Assembly (NCBI GenBank): GCA_026003175.1
Contig: BPGT01000002.1
Coordinates: 186,001-250,000, forward strand
Length of the DNA: 64,000 nucleotides
Source: Armatimonadota bacterium
GTDB lineage: Bacteria; Armatimonadota; HRBIN16
Reading direction: 5' to 3'
Below the pieces are notes generated by a model that searched no databases, was not told the origin of the DNA, and saw nothing but the letters and a program-made list of their open reading frames with translations. The position numbers and the translations under genes are program-made. Positions 56,214 to 62,500 of this stretch are shown here, piece by piece (within the stretch, counting starts at the first letter, position 1; the number at the start of each line of letters is the position of its first letter).

Positions 56214-56954
56214 CTACGCTTTGCGCCGCCGCAGCAAAGGAAGCAAACCGAGTGCAAACAGGCTCATCGTTGCAGGCTCGGGTACGACCGCCATACGGAT
56301 TACCATGTCGTTGTAGTCGCCACCGAAGCCCTCGCCGCTGTTCGCGGGCTTATCCTCGATACCGATCCAGTAGACGCTCGGAGCCTCTTGGAACAGCGCG
56401 AAGTGCTGGTGCTGCTGCTCTGACCCCACGTTCAGCATGGACTGGGTGTAGTACTTCTTGCCACCCGCGGTCTTGATATACAGACCGAAGTTGGTGCTTG
56501 GCGAGAACACGGTGGTAGAACCTGCCCCAGCCGGACCGGGGAAAATAACCCCGCCGACGGAGGGGTTGCTCACGTCGTACCAGCCCAGCTCGTTGATATT
56601 CGCGTAACCTGCGACCTCAATATACAGCTTCACCGCCTGCGACAGGTTGCTGTTGAAGTGGAAGTTGAGGTCTGCGCTACCGTCGCCGTAGCCCCACCAG
56701 GGCGGCGTGATGTTCGGGCTAGCAGGATGGCTGCTGAACGCACCGGTCTTGCTCAGGAAGTAACCGATATTCTTCTGGTTCCCGTCCTGAGAGGTATTGT
56801 CCCAGTAGGGATTACCATCCTGGTTGGGTGCAGACCATGCCTGCCACCCTGCCCCTGCGGAGCCCACCACGTTGGTGGTTGCGCCGGCGGAGACGGTCAG
56901 CGCCACTACCCCCGCTACCACGAGCAGGAGCCATCGAGAAACACATTTCTGCAT
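56214..56954 (-). CDS. PEP-CTERM-anchored secreted protein
   Basis: 246 residues: signal peptide RWLLLVVAGVVALTVSAGA, a central beta-rich body, and the sorting tail VVPEPATMSLFALGLLPLLR followed by RRKA. The PEP-CTERM tail is recognised by exosortase in bacteria that make exopolysaccharide; no exosortase gene is in this window. The FGGDYNDMVIRMAVVPEP segment just before the tail is typical of this class. GGAGG lies just before the ATG. Function of the body unknown. Confidence 0.82.
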   Translation of the reverse strand: MQKCVSRWLLLVVAGVVALTVSAGATTNVVGSAGAGWQAWSAPNQDGNPYWDNTSQDGNQKNIGYFLSKTGAFSSHPASPNITPPWWGYGDGSADLNFHFNSNLSQAVKLYIEVAGYANINELGWYDVSNPSVGGVIFPGPAGAGSTTVFSPSTNFGLYIKTAGGKKYYTQSMLNVGSEQQHQHFALFQEAPSVYWIGIEDKPANSGEGFGGDYNDMVIRMAVVPEPATMSLFALGLLPLLRRRKA

Positions 56955-57092
56955 GTGTACACTACCTCCTTAGAAATGTAGTCACCCTTATTAGATAGCA
57001 AGAAGTGGCGCAGATGGGCTTCGCAAAGTACGGGGATTCCTGCCAACAACAGGGAAAACCGGTAACGATACGGGGTGAACGCCGCGATACAT

Positions 57093-57277
57093 GAGGGTGT
57101 TCGAAATTGCTGGTTGAATGGATAGATAACCTAACCCCCTTGCCCCCTTCCCTGCAAGGGAAGGGGAACGCCCCTCTCCTCGTAGGAGAGGGGACGGGGG
57201 TGAGGTAAGGCAGGGATAGCAAGAACGCCTCTCTCCTTGCGCTACAACCAACTTCTCAACAATTCTCGAACACCCTC
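57093..57277 (-). mobile_element. MITE-like element, copy C (185 bp)
   Basis: Same orientation as copy B and identical apart from one G missing in a G run of the inner hairpin. Flanked by a 9-base direct repeat GCGATACAT (57084-57092 and 57278-57286). The right duplication runs directly into the efp promoter (TTGACT at 57286). The rest of the gap 56955-57083 has nothing recognisable. Confidence 0.92.
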
Positions 57278-57285
57278 GCGATACA

Positions 57286-57315
57286 TTGACTTCCGTCCGT
57301 TCTGTTTGATATACT
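57286..57315 (+). promoter_or_regulatory. Promoter of efp, abutting MITE copy C
   Basis: TTGACT (57286-57291), an 18-base spacer and TATACT (57310-57315). The first T of the -35 box is the last base of the MITE target duplication. Confidence 0.65.
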
Positions 57316-57352
57316 GCTTAAGGATTTTGAGCACGACAGGAGGTTCGTTTTC

Positions 57353-57919
57353 TTGATAGACACCAGCGATTTCCGCAACGGTCTACATATCATCGTAGAT
57401 GGCGACATCTACACCATCATCGAGTTCATGCATGTCAAACCGGGTAAAGGTGGAGCGTTCGTGCGCACCAAGCTGAAGAACGTGCGCACTGGTGCGGTGA
57501 TAGACAAAACCTTCCGCGCCGGAGAGCGTATGGAGCAGGCTTTCCTCGAACGCAAACCGATGCAGTTCCTCTACAATCAGGACGACGAGTACTACCTCAT
57601 GGACATGGACACGTATGACCAGATTATGGTGCGCCGTGAGCAGTTTGGCGACGGCATCAAGTACCTCAAGGAGAACATGGAAGTGACGGTACTGATGCAC
57701 GAAGGGCGTGTGGTCGGCGTGGAGATACCCTGGTTCGTGGAACTGCAGGTGGTAGAGACCGACCCCGGCGTGCGCGGAGACACCGCTTCCGGCGGCTCTA
57801 AGCCCGCTACGCTGGAAACAGGCGCCGTCGTGCGCGTGCCGTTCCACATCAACGTGGGCGACATCATCAAGGTGGATACGCGAACCGACCAGTATCTGGA
57901 GCGCGTGAAAGCACAATAG
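57353..57919 (+). CDS. efp: Elongation factor P
   Basis: Relieves ribosome stalling at proline runs. 188 residues in three beta domains. [20 protein letters not shown] starts domain I and K32 in [16 protein letters not shown] is the loop residue modified in many bacteria. [20 protein letters not shown] and [20 protein letters not shown] are the family's C-terminal signature. The start is TTG 57353, nine bases after GGAGG. It probably leads an operon with the next five genes. Confidence 0.94.
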
Positions 57920-57941
57920 CGCAGGAGAGGGGGGCGAGGAC

Positions 57942-59054
57942 ATGGGTCGCCCGGGCCGTTCCTTTCGCGCCCGTAAAACGGCGGAATTGCTGCAGGACCT
58001 GCTGCAGCTTATCGGCGTCGTGTCGGCAGCTGGCGCGGTATTGGCAATCGCATATCTGCTCTGGGGCGTCTTTTCGGGCATGGTGAGCTCATGGGCAACT
58101 CTGCCCCCCGCTGAACGTCTGCGTGTGGAGCAGAACGTGGATCTCGCCGGACGCGCGCTGTTAATGAGCATCGCTGCCGCCGCGGCGAGCTTCACCCTGC
58201 TGTACATTCAGGAAACCACTATCGGCTACATCTTCCTGTTGCTGGCGGCTCTGTTGGCTCTGGGCGCTCCGCTGGGCATTATCCATCTCGCCCCACAAGG
58301 GCGGGAACCCACCCTTTTGCCCGCAGTGGTGGTGGCTTTCCAGCAGGCGGGGTTGTTATGTCTGGTGCCGGGCATCATCTTCGCAGTGCTGGACGTATGG
58401 ATGCGCGTCACCTCCGGGTACTTCCGCGAGATGTTCAACCGCGCCAGCCTGCAATACGGTGCAAACGTAGCACGCGAAAACCAGCCGACTAACCGATTTC
58501 TCGGCAAGTGCTGGCAGTTGCCTTTCTGTCGCCCGAGCGTCCGCAAGAGCTGCCCTATCTACCACGCCCGACGCGCTTGCTGGCGGGAGGGGGTGGGCTG
58601 CATGTGTGAAGAGCGCGTCATCCTGCAGGCGCTGGAGGGCAAGGGCGCGCCAAGCAGTGACCCTCGCCAGAACGTGCGTTTCATCCCATACAACAGACAT
58701 CTCTCGGAAGAAGAAAAACGCGAACGCTGCCGCAACTGCATCATCTATAACTACCGGCAGCAGCAGAAGTACCAGGTCATTGCCCCTATTGTGATAGTGA
58801 TGGCAGTCGCTATCGTGGTGAACTACGCACAGCAAGCACAGCAACTGCTGTTTCAGGTGCTCCGTGCGGTGGATAATTTCGTCGCCCGATTCGCCTTTTT
58901 GCCGTCGTCCGGTGAAGTGCAATACATGAAGATCGAATCGCTAGCGCGTTCATCTGAATTCGTTGCGTGGATGATGATAGGCATCATTGCGGTGATATTT
59001 GTGAGTTACATCTTGCGCATTGTGGAATACTTCATCTTTCAGTTGAAGGTGTAG
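57942..59054 (+). CDS. Polytopic membrane protein with eight-cysteine cytoplasmic region
   Basis: 370 residues. About four N-terminal membrane helices (near residues 23-45, 73-90, 95-117, 127-150) and two C-terminal ones (about 278-297 and 335-360). Between them lies a soluble part with C190, C196, C204, C213, C220, C222, C263 and C266 (KCWQLPFC, VGCMCEE, RERCRNC), spaced like one or two iron-sulfur or zinc sites. I recognise no family. It starts 22 bases after efp and is four bases from the accB-like gene, so it is part of that operon. Confidence 0.7.
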   Translation: MGRPGRSFRARKTAELLQDLLQLIGVVSAAGAVLAIAYLLWGVFSGMVSSWATLPPAERLRVEQNVDLAGRALLMSIAAAAASFTLLYIQETTIGYIFLLLAALLALGAPLGIIHLAPQGREPTLLPAVVVAFQQAGLLCLVPGIIFAVLDVWMRVTSGYFREMFNRASLQYGANVARENQPTNRFLGKCWQLPFCRPSVRKSCPIYHARRACWREGVGCMCEERVILQALEGKGAPSSDPRQNVRFIPYNRHLSEEEKRERCRNCIIYNYRQQQKYQVIAPIVIVMAVAIVVNYAQQAQQLLFQVLRAVDNFVARFAFLPSSGEVQYMKIESLARSSEFVAWMMIGIIAVIFVSYILRIVEYFIFQLKV

Positions 59055-59057
59055 CCA

Positions 59058-59486
59058 ATGGCACAGACACAGGCGGAACGGATTGAACACCTGCTGAACC
59101 TGCTTCAGCACAGCGACGCAAGCGAGCTGGAGGTAGAGACCAGCACATGGCGATTGCGCGTGCGTCGACAGGTGATAGTTGCTGCCCCCACTGTTCAGGA
59201 ACCGGCAACAGAGCCAGTATCCGTGCCCCCCGAACCCGCTTCGGTGTGGATACGGTCGCCGCTGGTGGGCTTCTTTGAACCGCGTCCCAAGCCGTTGCAG
59301 GTGGGTGATATCGTCAAGCAAGGTGAAGTGGTGTGCTTGATTCGGGCCATGGGGCTGATGAACGAGGTGCAAAGCCCTGTGAATGGGCGTGTCGCCGAAG
59401 TGCTTGTCGAGGAAGGCATTGCGGTGGAGTACGGGCAGCCACTGTACCGCCTGATAGAGGAGGAAAGCGATGAAACGCGCTCGTGA
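59058..59486 (+). CDS. AccB-like biotinyl-domain protein lacking the biotinyl lysine
   Basis: 142 residues with the AccB layout: an N-terminal helix (ERIEHLLNLLQHSDASELEV), a Pro/Val-rich linker (PATEPVSVPPEPASV), then a biotinyl domain SPLVGFF, VCLIRAMGLMNEVQSPVNGR, EYGQPLYRLIE. The biotin-accepting sequence should read AMKLMN; here codon 99 (59352-59354) is GGG, so Lys is replaced by Gly and biotin cannot be attached. It lies upstream of accC as accB normally does. Plants have such proteins (BADC) that inhibit acetyl-CoA carboxylase; a similar role is inference. Confidence 0.85.
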   Translation: MAQTQAERIEHLLNLLQHSDASELEVETSTWRLRVRRQVIVAAPTVQEPATEPVSVPPEPASVWIRSPLVGFFEPRPKPLQVGDIVKQGEVVCLIRAMGLMNEVQSPVNGRVAEVLVEEGIAVEYGQPLYRLIEEESDETRS

Positions 59487-59829
59487 GGCGTGGAGCCTGA
59501 TAGAGATACTGATAGTGCTCGCTCTGCTGCTGATTCTAGCCATCTGGCTACTGCCGAAGTATACCGGCAGAGGTACCGAGCCGTCCGGTCAACCTCGCAA
59601 AACGCCCGAAAACGCGGCGTTAGCGGTACAGTGCCGGAACAACCTGCAGCAGATTCGCCTCTCCATCCGCATGTCTCGTCCGACGGGCGAAGAACCTCTA
59701 CCTGCCTCTTTACAAGACCTGCGATTACCGGCGGAGATGCTATACTGCCCTGTCAGCAAACAGCCTTACTGGTATGACCCGCAGAGTGGGCGTGTGCAGT
59801 GTCCCACTCCGTCGCATGAGGGATTTTGA
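59470..59829 (+). CDS. Small prepilin-like protein nested between accB-like and accC
   Basis: 119 residues, starting 17 bases before the end of the accB-like gene. MKRAREAW then [20 protein letters not shown] is a type III prepilin signal with Glu at +5. A short soluble part follows ([40 protein letters not shown]), similar to a very small pseudopilin. Its TGA overlaps the region just before the accC ATG. Why a pilin lies inside a fatty-acid operon is unknown; co-translation with accB/accC is the only visible link. Confidence 0.75.
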
Positions 59830-59831
59830 GC

Positions 59832-61187
59832 ATGTTTCGGAAGGTGCTGATTGCTAACCGAGGCGAGATCGCTCTGCGCATTATCCGCGCATGCAAGGAG
59901 CTGGGTATAGCTACCGTTGCTGTCTATTCGGAAGCCGATGCCAATAGCCTGCATGTGCAGGCAGCGGACGAGGCGGTGTGCATCGGTCCCGGTCCGGGCA
60001 AAGACAGCTACCTGAACATCCCCAACGTGATTATGGCAGCCATTATCACCGGCGCGGAAGCCATCCACCCCGGCTACGGTTACCTTTCCGAGCGTGCCAG
60101 CTTCGCCGAGGCGTGCGAAGCGAGCGGACTGGTGTTTATCGGTCCACCACCCTCTGCTATCGAGAAGATGGGCGATAAGGCGGTGGCGCGCGAGATTGTG
60201 CGCCATGCGAAAGTGCCGGTGGTGCCTGGCACGCACGGCGCTATCCGCAATGAGCAGGAGGCGTTAAAACAGGCACAGCGCATTGGCTATCCGGTGTTGG
60301 TAAAGGCAGTGGCTGGCGGCGGCGGTAAAGGCATCCGCCTGGCCGAAAATGCGGAGGATCTCTCGCGTGTGTTACAGCTGGCGCAAAGTGAGGCACTAGC
60401 AGCATTCGGTTCGCCTGAGGTGTACGTGGAAAAGTTCATCCCAGACCCGCGCCATGTGGAGGTGCAGGTGCTTGCCGACGCCTACGGTAACGTCATCCAT
60501 CTGGGCGAACGTGAATGCTCCATCCAGACCGCCAGACGCCAGAAGATGGTGGAGGAAGCGCCTGCAACCGTGGTCGCTCCTACCTTGCGCCAGAAGATGG
60601 GCGAGGCAGCCGTTCGCGCAGCGAAGGCAGTTGGCTACGTGAACGCGGGTACGGTAGAATTCTTACTAGATAACAAAGGCAACTTCTACTTCATCGAGAT
60701 GAACACGCGCATTCAGGTGGAACATCCCGTCACCGAGCAGGTCACTGGTGTGGACATTGTGCGTGAACAGATACGCATCGCGGCGAAGGAACGACTGCAC
60801 CTTTCCCAACGCGATGTGCAGTGGCGGGGACACTCCATCGAGTGTCGCTTGACCGCTGAGGACCCAGATAACGACTTTGCTCCCTGCGTGGGCAAGGTCA
60901 AGCATCTGGTACTTCCGGGCGGTCCGGGGGTGCGCGTGGACACCCACCTGTACCCGGGCTACGAGATACCGCCCTACTACGACTCGCTGCTTGCGAAGAT
61001 TATCGTGTGGGCAGAGGACAGACCAGCTGCTATCGCGCGCATGAGGCGCGCGCTGGAGGAAACGCAGATTGAAGGAGTGAAGACCAATTTGCCCTTCTTA
61101 AAACGCATCATGGAACACCCGGAGTATCAGAAGGGCAACGTCTCCACGCAGTTTTTGCGTCGCTACCTGCGAAACAGCGCGGAGTGA
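59832..61187 (+). CDS. accC: Biotin carboxylase (acetyl-CoA carboxylase AccC)
   Basis: ATP-grasp enzyme that carboxylates the biotin of Acc[21 protein letters not shown] starts the N-domain; [20 protein letters not shown] is the glycine-rich ATP loop; [20 protein letters not shown] and [20 protein letters not shown] are catalytic signatures. 451 residues from ATG 59832; the TTG at 59826 is a less likely start. Because the adjacent AccB-like protein lacks its Lys, this enzyme must use another biotin carrier encoded elsewhere. Confidence 0.95.
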
Positions 61188-61199
61188 GGTAAGCGAAAC

Positions 61200-61643
61200 A
61201 TGAGCAGTTCCACGTTGCGCAAACAGGGTGCAGGCACACGCCGACTGGCAAGAGAGCTAGCGCTGCGCCTGCTGTATCAGGTGGACATTGCGCAGATGCC
61301 TCTGGACGAGTGCTTTACCTTCGCAGTAGAGCACATGCCTATCGAGGAAGCGGGGCAGCAGTTCGCTTACGAGCTGGCTTCTGGCACGCTGCAGAATCTG
61401 CAGCAGATAGACTCTATCATTGCTCGTTTCGCTATCGGCTGGCCTCCCGAACGGCAGCCCGCCCCCGACCGCAACGTGCTGCGTCTGGCAATATACGAGC
61501 TGCTTCACCATCCCGAAACGCCGCCCAGCGTGGTTATCAGCGAGGCGGTGGAGCTGGCGAAGAAGTATAATTCTGACGAGTCCGGCAAGTTTGTCAACGG
61601 TGTGCTGGCAAGCGTGTTCAAACATCTGGAGGAGTACCGGTGA
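61200..61643 (+). CDS. nusB: Transcription antitermination factor NusB
   Basis: All-helical RNA-binding protein of the antitermination complex of rRNA operons. 147 residues with RRLARELALRLLYQVDIAQM, PDRNVLRLAIYELLHHPETP, VVISEAVELAKKYNSDESGK and FVNGVLASV, the standard signature. It follows accC by 12 bases and its stop overlaps the folD GTG by four bases. Confidence 0.95.
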   Translation: MSSSTLRKQGAGTRRLARELALRLLYQVDIAQMPLDECFTFAVEHMPIEEAGQQFAYELASGTLQNLQQIDSIIARFAIGWPPERQPAPDRNVLRLAIYELLHHPETPPSVVISEAVELAKKYNSDESGKFVNGVLASVFKHLEEYR

Positions 61644-62500
61644 GTGCAACCCTGTTAGACGGTGTAGCAATCGCTACGCAAATCCGTGAAGAACTCAAGC
61701 CGCGTGTGCAACGGCTGCGTGAAGCGGGTATCGTGCCAAAGCTCAGCGTGTTACTTATTGGCGACGACCCGGCATCTCACACCTACGTGCGCATGAAAGC
61801 CAAAGCGTGCCGAAGCGTAGGTATCGAGTCGGAAACCTTTGCTCTACCCCACAATACCTCTCAGCAAGAGGCAGAGGAGTTGATTGCCCGGTTGAACGCC
61901 GATGAAAGCGTGCACGGCATACTGGTGCAACACCCTGTGCCCAAACATCTTGACGAAATCCGTTTGCTCAACCACCTGTCGCCCGATAAAGACGTGGACG
62001 GCATCTCACCCGCTTCGTTGGGTGCGTTGGTAGCCGGAGTGGCGAAGTTCATCTCGTGCACCCCACTGGGCATTGTGGAACTGCTGGACCGCTACCAGAT
62101 TCCCATTGAAGGGCAACGCGCGGTGGTGGTGGGGCGCAGCATCATTCTGGGCAAACCGCTGGCTCTGCTGCTTCTACAGCGTAACGCCACCGTCACCGTG
62201 TGCCACACCCGCACGCGCGATCTGCCCTCGGTCACCCGCGAGGCGGACATTCTGGTTGCCGCGTGTGGCAGGGCGGAGTTGATCACCGGAGATATGATAC
62301 GCCCGGGTGCAGTGGTGGTAGACGCAGGTTACAATCGCGTGGAGGGGCGCAGTGGCGACGTGGGCGATGTGCACTTCGAATCGGCATCACAGGTCGCCTC
62401 ATACATTACGCCGGTGCCGGGCGGGGTGGGTCCCATGACCATCGCAATGCTGCTTTCCAACACGGTACGCGCGGCGGAGATGAGGTTGAAGATGCAGTGA
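61640..62500 (+). CDS. folD: Methylenetetrahydrofolate dehydrogenase/cyclohydrolase FolD
   Basis: Interconverts methylene-, methenyl- and formyl-THF, supplying purine synthesis and Fmt. 286 residues with PKLSVLLIGDDPASHTYVRM (catalytic Tyr/Lys region), LVQHPVPKHLDE, PDKDVDGISP, the NADP-binding VVGRSIILGKPLALLLLQ and ITPVPGGVGPMTIAML at the end. The GTG start overlaps the nusB stop, and its own stop overlaps the ispA GTG (GTGA). Confidence 0.95.
   Translation: MSATLLDGVAIATQIREELKPRVQRLREAGIVPKLSVLLIGDDPASHTYVRMKAKACRSVGIESETFALPHNTSQQEAEELIARLNADESVHGILVQHPVPKHLDEIRLLNHLSPDKDVDGISPASLGALVAGVAKFISCTPLGIVELLDRYQIPIEGQRAVVVGRSIILGKPLALLLLQRNATVTVCHTRTRDLPSVTREADILVAACGRAELITGDMIRPGAVVVDAGYNRVEGRSGDVGDVHFESASQVASYITPVPGGVGPMTIAMLLSNTVRAAEMRLKMQ

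Follow-up and report, generated by a model that had tools for sequence, protein, structure and literature searches.

The window analysed in this study, a stretch of 64,000 nucleotides from an Armatimonadota bacterium, contains a gene cluster on one strand in the order efp, a membrane protein gene, accB2, a pseudopilin-like gene, accC, and nusB (Table 1). No match was found in Pfam or NCBIfam for either the 370-aa membrane protein or the 119-aa pseudopilin-like protein, and Rfam gave no match within positions 56500-62000. In many Armatimonadota, a membrane protein like that encoded at 57942-59054 recurs at this place, between efp and accB2. Besides, a pseudopilin-like gene such as the one at 59470-59829 is kept between accB2 and accC across most of the phylum.

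Table 1. Features of the accB2 gene cluster, in positions of the window
Feature	Positions	Strand	Basis
Promoter-like site, 5' of efp	57286..57315	+	TTGACT-18-TATACT, extended -10; consensus match only, 10/12
efp, elongation factor P, opens the conserved cluster	57353..57919	+	TIGR00038, 263.5 bits
370-aa membrane protein, Cys-rich middle, family unassigned	57942..59054	+	Homologues in the same place
accB2, Lys-less AccB (BCCP) paralogue, 142 aa	59058..59486	+	PF00364, 51.6 bits; AF2 model
accB2, N-terminal helix (aa 5-17) and beta-hairpin (aa 22-37)	59070..59168	+	AF2 secondary structure; column entropy
accB2, thumb region, shortened, between Gly71 and Gly83	59268..59306	+	11 residues vs 16; alignment with E. 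coli BCCP 4hr7
accB2, GGG codon, Gly99 at the biotinylated-Lys position	59352..59354	+	Sequence
119-aa protein, pseudopilin-like N terminus	59470..59829	+	Sequence; overlaps the accB2 end
accC, biotin carboxylase, sole one found in the genome	59832..61187	+	TIGR00514, 699.4 bits, cut-off 626.5; genome search
nusB, next in the conserved cluster after accC	61200..61643	+	TIGR01951, 129.4 bits

The biotin-site region of AccB2 (ORF 59058-59486) reads ...VVCLIRAMGLMNEVQSP.... The sequence-only reading had claimed that Gly replaces the biotinylated Lys in an otherwise good biotinyl domain, and this was borne out, codon 99 being GGG and the PF00364 match (51.6 bits, cut-off 22.1) being clear. Its further statement that the gene occupies an accB-like position in the operon also holds, with a full-scoring AccC (TIGR00514, 699 bits) in the same cluster. 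AccB2 scored 84.4 bits against TIGR00531 for BCCP, under the cut-off of 115.2, and this miss is weak evidence because the genome's own Lys-bearing AccB narrowly fails it too (111.8 bits). Lys at the biotin site and Glu at position -3 from it were each present in 70 of the 70 AccB proteins retrieved from other phyla. In AccB2, the Lys at the hairpin turn (AMK) that characterises a functional carrier is replaced by Gly99, and the Glu by Arg96; this Glu is lost in the genus of the window, and both Glu at -3 and Met at -1 are also relaxed in the Lys-less copies of Armatimonadota. The AF2 model of AccB2 (pLDDT 84) has the biotinyl fold together with the N-terminal helix and hairpin and thus the fold of AccB/BCCP. 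In a Foldseek search with this model, the best PDB match was E. coli BCCP 1bdo, and 9a87, 5gu8, and 4hr7 were also matched; E. coli BCCP, Arabidopsis BCCP1, and the E. coli BCCP-BC complex were among the best PDB matches. The Lys-bearing AccB encoded in the genome was also modelled and showed the same structural elements.

Relatives were checked for the Gly, as had been proposed from the sequence. All same-genus operon copies (8/8) read AM-Gly-L(M/P)NEV, none of them AMKLMN, with GGG or GGA as the codon at the biotin site, and the seven other proteins were 67-86% identical to the AccB2 of the window. The dN/dS of accB2 in the closest same-genus pairs was about 0.06-0.16, similar to that of the Lys copy, although these values are rough because dS is high. 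accB2 is under purifying selection. A stepwise path of Lys (AAG), Arg (AGG), and Gly (GGG) was considered and found to be unsupported, as the relatives with Arg use CGN codons.

A second, Lys-containing accB, for which a search of the genome had been suggested, was found in G000 at C2:725476-725901. It encodes the motif EAMKVFNEI, and its product shares 36% identity with AccB2. Genome searches revealed one each of AccC, AccA, AccD, BirA, and Lys-bearing AccB, and there is accordingly one acetyl-CoA carboxylase (ACC) available for AccB2 to join. As predicted from its genes, the organism has a single heteromeric ACC with two carriers, of which one can be biotinylated and the other cannot. The Lys-bearing accB sits in a different cluster (L038:3577-8197), whose neighbours, judged by eye, are ribBA-, ribH-, and homoserine dehydrogenase-like genes and a gene for a small membrane protein.

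The survey of Armatimonadota covered 61 genomes, in which 115 AccB copies were read, and two AccB paralogues were present in nearly every genome. The order of the cluster genes was preserved across most of 27 families. Lys was found in 16 of the 55 copies linked to the efp-accB-accC-nusB cluster, the remainder having Gly (23), Arg (8), Thr (3), His (2), Asp (1), Ser (1), or Asn (1) at the biotin site, whereas all 60 of the 60 unlinked copies carried Lys (Fisher's test, 4e-18, ignoring kinship). When an AccB tree was built without the Lys column, a single branch (SH-aLRT 95) separated the linked from the unlinked copies. At least 11 changes between Lys and non-Lys were needed on the linked side; this count is approximate, since the tree is built on few columns and many of its forks are weak. 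The 16 operon copies that keep Lys may be ordinary second carriers. In one family (f3), the unlinked Lys-bearing AccB (L151, L135) reads IMAMKVMSE, with Met replacing the otherwise invariant Glu at -3.

What selection keeps in the Armatimonadota copies was evaluated by column entropy. The mean entropy of the loop at residues 96-102 was 1.98 bits in the Lys-less copies, as against 0.88 in the Lys-bearing operon copies and 0.51 in the unlinked copies. The N-terminal hairpin was not relaxed (2.13, 1.96, and 2.24 in the Lys-less, Lys-bearing operon, and unlinked copies, respectively), and the core was little relaxed (1.97, 1.69, and 1.66, respectively). Strong relaxation in the Lys-less copies is thus confined to the Lys loop.

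A scan of the sequence collection, which used an alignment narrower than the whole phylum, returned Thermogemmatispora (Ktedonobacteria, Chloroflexota), which has an efp-linked AccB with Asn at the Lys site and a separate copy with EAMKSFNEV. Across 41 genomes of Ktedonobacteria, none of the 38 efp-type copies carried Lys (Asn in 33, Arg in 5), and 12 of the 12 other AccB copies read did. The Lys-less copy in this class usually adjoins efp and not accC, indicating that linkage to accC is not universal. In two Ktedonobacteria (L299 and L300), accC, a Lys-less accB, and a Lys accB are consecutive on one strand; the coordinates in L299 are 2-1372 for accC, 1281-1922 for the Lys-less ORF, and 1859-2380 for the Lys ORF. 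These tandem accB pairs (L299:1281-2380 and L300:1258-2205) are additional to the efp-linked Lys-less copy. In the other classes of Chloroflexota, a second, Lys-bearing AccB was present in eight of the nine genomes with a Lys-less efp copy and in none of the nine with a Lys-bearing one. The Lys-less efp copies of these eight genomes have Asn, Asp, Gln, or Gly at the site, and the nine Lys-bearing copies are the sole AccB of that type in their genomes (Fisher's test on these eight and nine, 4e-5, ignoring kinship). The exception, G152 (L334), a 1.8-Mb Chloroflexota genome, has Gly in its efp-linked AccB, and a second AccB was not found in it; this genome may be incomplete or a real exception. 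In a joint tree of the two phyla, the Lys-bearing second copies grouped together (SH-aLRT 92), and the linked copies were poorly resolved. As judged from these sequences, Lys-less AccB is far more widespread than the sequence-only reading could see, apparently extending over two phyla in which Lys was lost separately many times.

Since AccB2 keeps the fold and the N terminus without biotin and is encoded together with AccC, it would most simply work inside the ACC complex. We consider it probable, by analogy, that AccB2 is a non-catalytic scaffold or regulatory subunit of ACC that works like plant BADC. Plant BADC aids the assembly of BC and BCCP (PMC11926652). In Chloroflexus aurantiacus BC1, two BC dimers are held together as an active tetramer by a barrel built from the N-terminal hairpins of four BCCP, and this BC tetramer does not require the BCCP core (PMC11077971). 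The hairpin that builds the tetramer there is also predicted in AccB2, although the BCCP of BC1 is fused to BC and biotinylatable, unlike AccB2.

What follows on the binding of AccB2, its part in assembly, its influence on activity, and the sequence of events in its origin is inferred and put forward as a proposal. The N-terminal helix and beta-hairpin of AccB2 would add to an oligomer joining AccC dimers, and its biotin-less biotinyl domain would fill carrier positions. AccB2 would act as a scaffold; its abundance relative to the biotinylated AccB, whose gene lies elsewhere, might also make it a rheostat. As for its origin, the presence of a second, Lys-bearing AccB would have freed the ancestral copy linked to efp and accC from biotin duty, and the linked copy would then have lost Lys many times and been retained for a structural role. 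We lean slightly towards the broader view that bacteria repeatedly evolved BADC-type subunits where a second Lys-bearing AccB was present, plant BADC being one case of a general route and not a plant invention. On this view, such subunits would have arisen in Armatimonadota (at least 11 changes between Lys and non-Lys) and in several lineages of Chloroflexota, with Asn almost fixed in Ktedonobacteria.

AccB2 might instead act mainly as an inhibitor, competing for AccC with the biotinylated AccB and reducing fatty acid synthesis in certain conditions, and its retention of the AccB fold without Lys would fit such a function. In the sequence-only reading, the protein had been compared with plant BADC, taken to bind the carboxylase and reduce its activity. 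The anatomical side of this comparison stands, AccB2 having no AMKL motif, 36% identity to the Lys-bearing AccB, and a place in the accC cluster; as to the reduction of activity, BADC was indeed originally described as an inhibitor or negative regulator, but the literature now leans to a role in assembly (PMC11926652, PMC12873504). We regard a mainly inhibitory role as unlikely: given its location in the accC cluster, AccB2 is probably made whenever AccC is, which is easier to reconcile with a permanent subunit than with an inhibitor used only under certain conditions, and it occurs in nearly every Armatimonadota genome.

Still less probable is a function outside ACC, such as the binding of BirA or of an efp-linked partner, with the biotinyl fold merely retained. 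While the conserved neighbour in Ktedonobacteria and other Chloroflexota is efp and not accC, the linkage of efp and accB exists also where that copy is the sole, Lys-bearing AccB, so that efp looks like merely an ancestral neighbour. The two genomes in which a Lys-less accB lies between accC and a Lys-bearing one also argue against this function, as does, in the case of BirA, the loss in the window genus of Glu at -3, a residue that matters for BirA recognition in E. coli. Several biotin carboxylases exist in some bacteria, and AccB2 could in principle serve a second acyl-CoA carboxylase or take another prosthetic group or attachment site; this is very improbable, the second carboxylase being rejected by the finding of only one AccC and one AccA/AccD pair in the genome, where PF01039 matched nothing else, and another attachment being opposed by the absence of Lys at the hairpin turn of AccB2. 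A sequencing or assembly error or a decaying pseudogene, in which the loss of a catalytic residue would be expected, is rejected in view of Gly in eight separately assembled genomes (67-86% identity) with a synonymous change in its codon, a dN/dS of about 0.1, and a gene order kept across most of 27 families.

The reading of AccB2 as a non-catalytic ACC subunit was compared with known systems. BADC1-3 of Arabidopsis, non-catalytic subunits of the plastid heteromeric ACC, are BCCP paralogues that lack the biotinylation motif and coexist with a Lys-bearing BCCP and a heteromeric ACC, and the same description applies to AccB2. The identity to BCCP is 25-30% for plant BADC (PMC11926652) and 36% for AccB2. 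In contrast to plant BADC, AccB2 is bacterial and lies in an accC cluster; moreover, the bacterial Lys is replaced by residues that differ between lineages and some orthologues keep Lys, which points to repeated bacterial origins. The many separate Lys losses in bacteria suggest an origin independent of plant BADC, and it is likely from the analogy that AccB2 works like BADC. With E. coli AccB/BCCP (1bdo/4hr7; TIGR00531), AccB2 shares the biotinyl fold, the N-terminal helix and hairpin, the VEYGQPL C-terminal signature, and the operon position with accC, but it is without the attachment Lys and the Glu at -3, and its thumb is five residues shorter. The AccE-type epsilon subunits of actinobacterial acyl-CoA carboxylases are not known to be biotinyl-domain proteins. 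Like the proposed AccB2 subunit they are small, non-catalytic, and active in assembly, through which they raise activity (PMC7835884), but they bind the carboxyltransferase subunit.

BADC, or biotin-less BCCP subunits, were called unique to the plant enzyme in a 2025 paper (PMC11926652), and no report of a bacterial BADC-like protein was found in the open-licence papers searched beyond the plant and actinobacterial precedents. Whether biotin-less BCCP inhibits or assembles is disputed, and the bacterial set would make this testable, as Lys, Gly, Asn, Arg, and Gln all occur naturally at the site, the gene clusters are small, and one host, Thermogemmatispora, is in culture. The set would also show how a catalytic subunit can become structural. 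ACC performs the first committed step in making fatty acids and is a target for antibacterials and herbicides.

BADC is thought to contact the thumb of plant BCCP. In the genome studied here, the Lys-bearing partner keeps an intact thumb, but that of AccB2 itself is shortened, a point that counts against the BADC-like reading. The thumb consists of 16 residues in all Lys-bearing AccB read outside the operon copies of Armatimonadota and of 8-16 residues in those operon copies, the AccB2 of the window having 11. Loss of the thumb was considered as a cause of the Lys loss and was rejected, since short and full thumbs both occur among the Lys-bearing operon copies and most Lys-less copies of Ktedonobacteria retain the thumb length.
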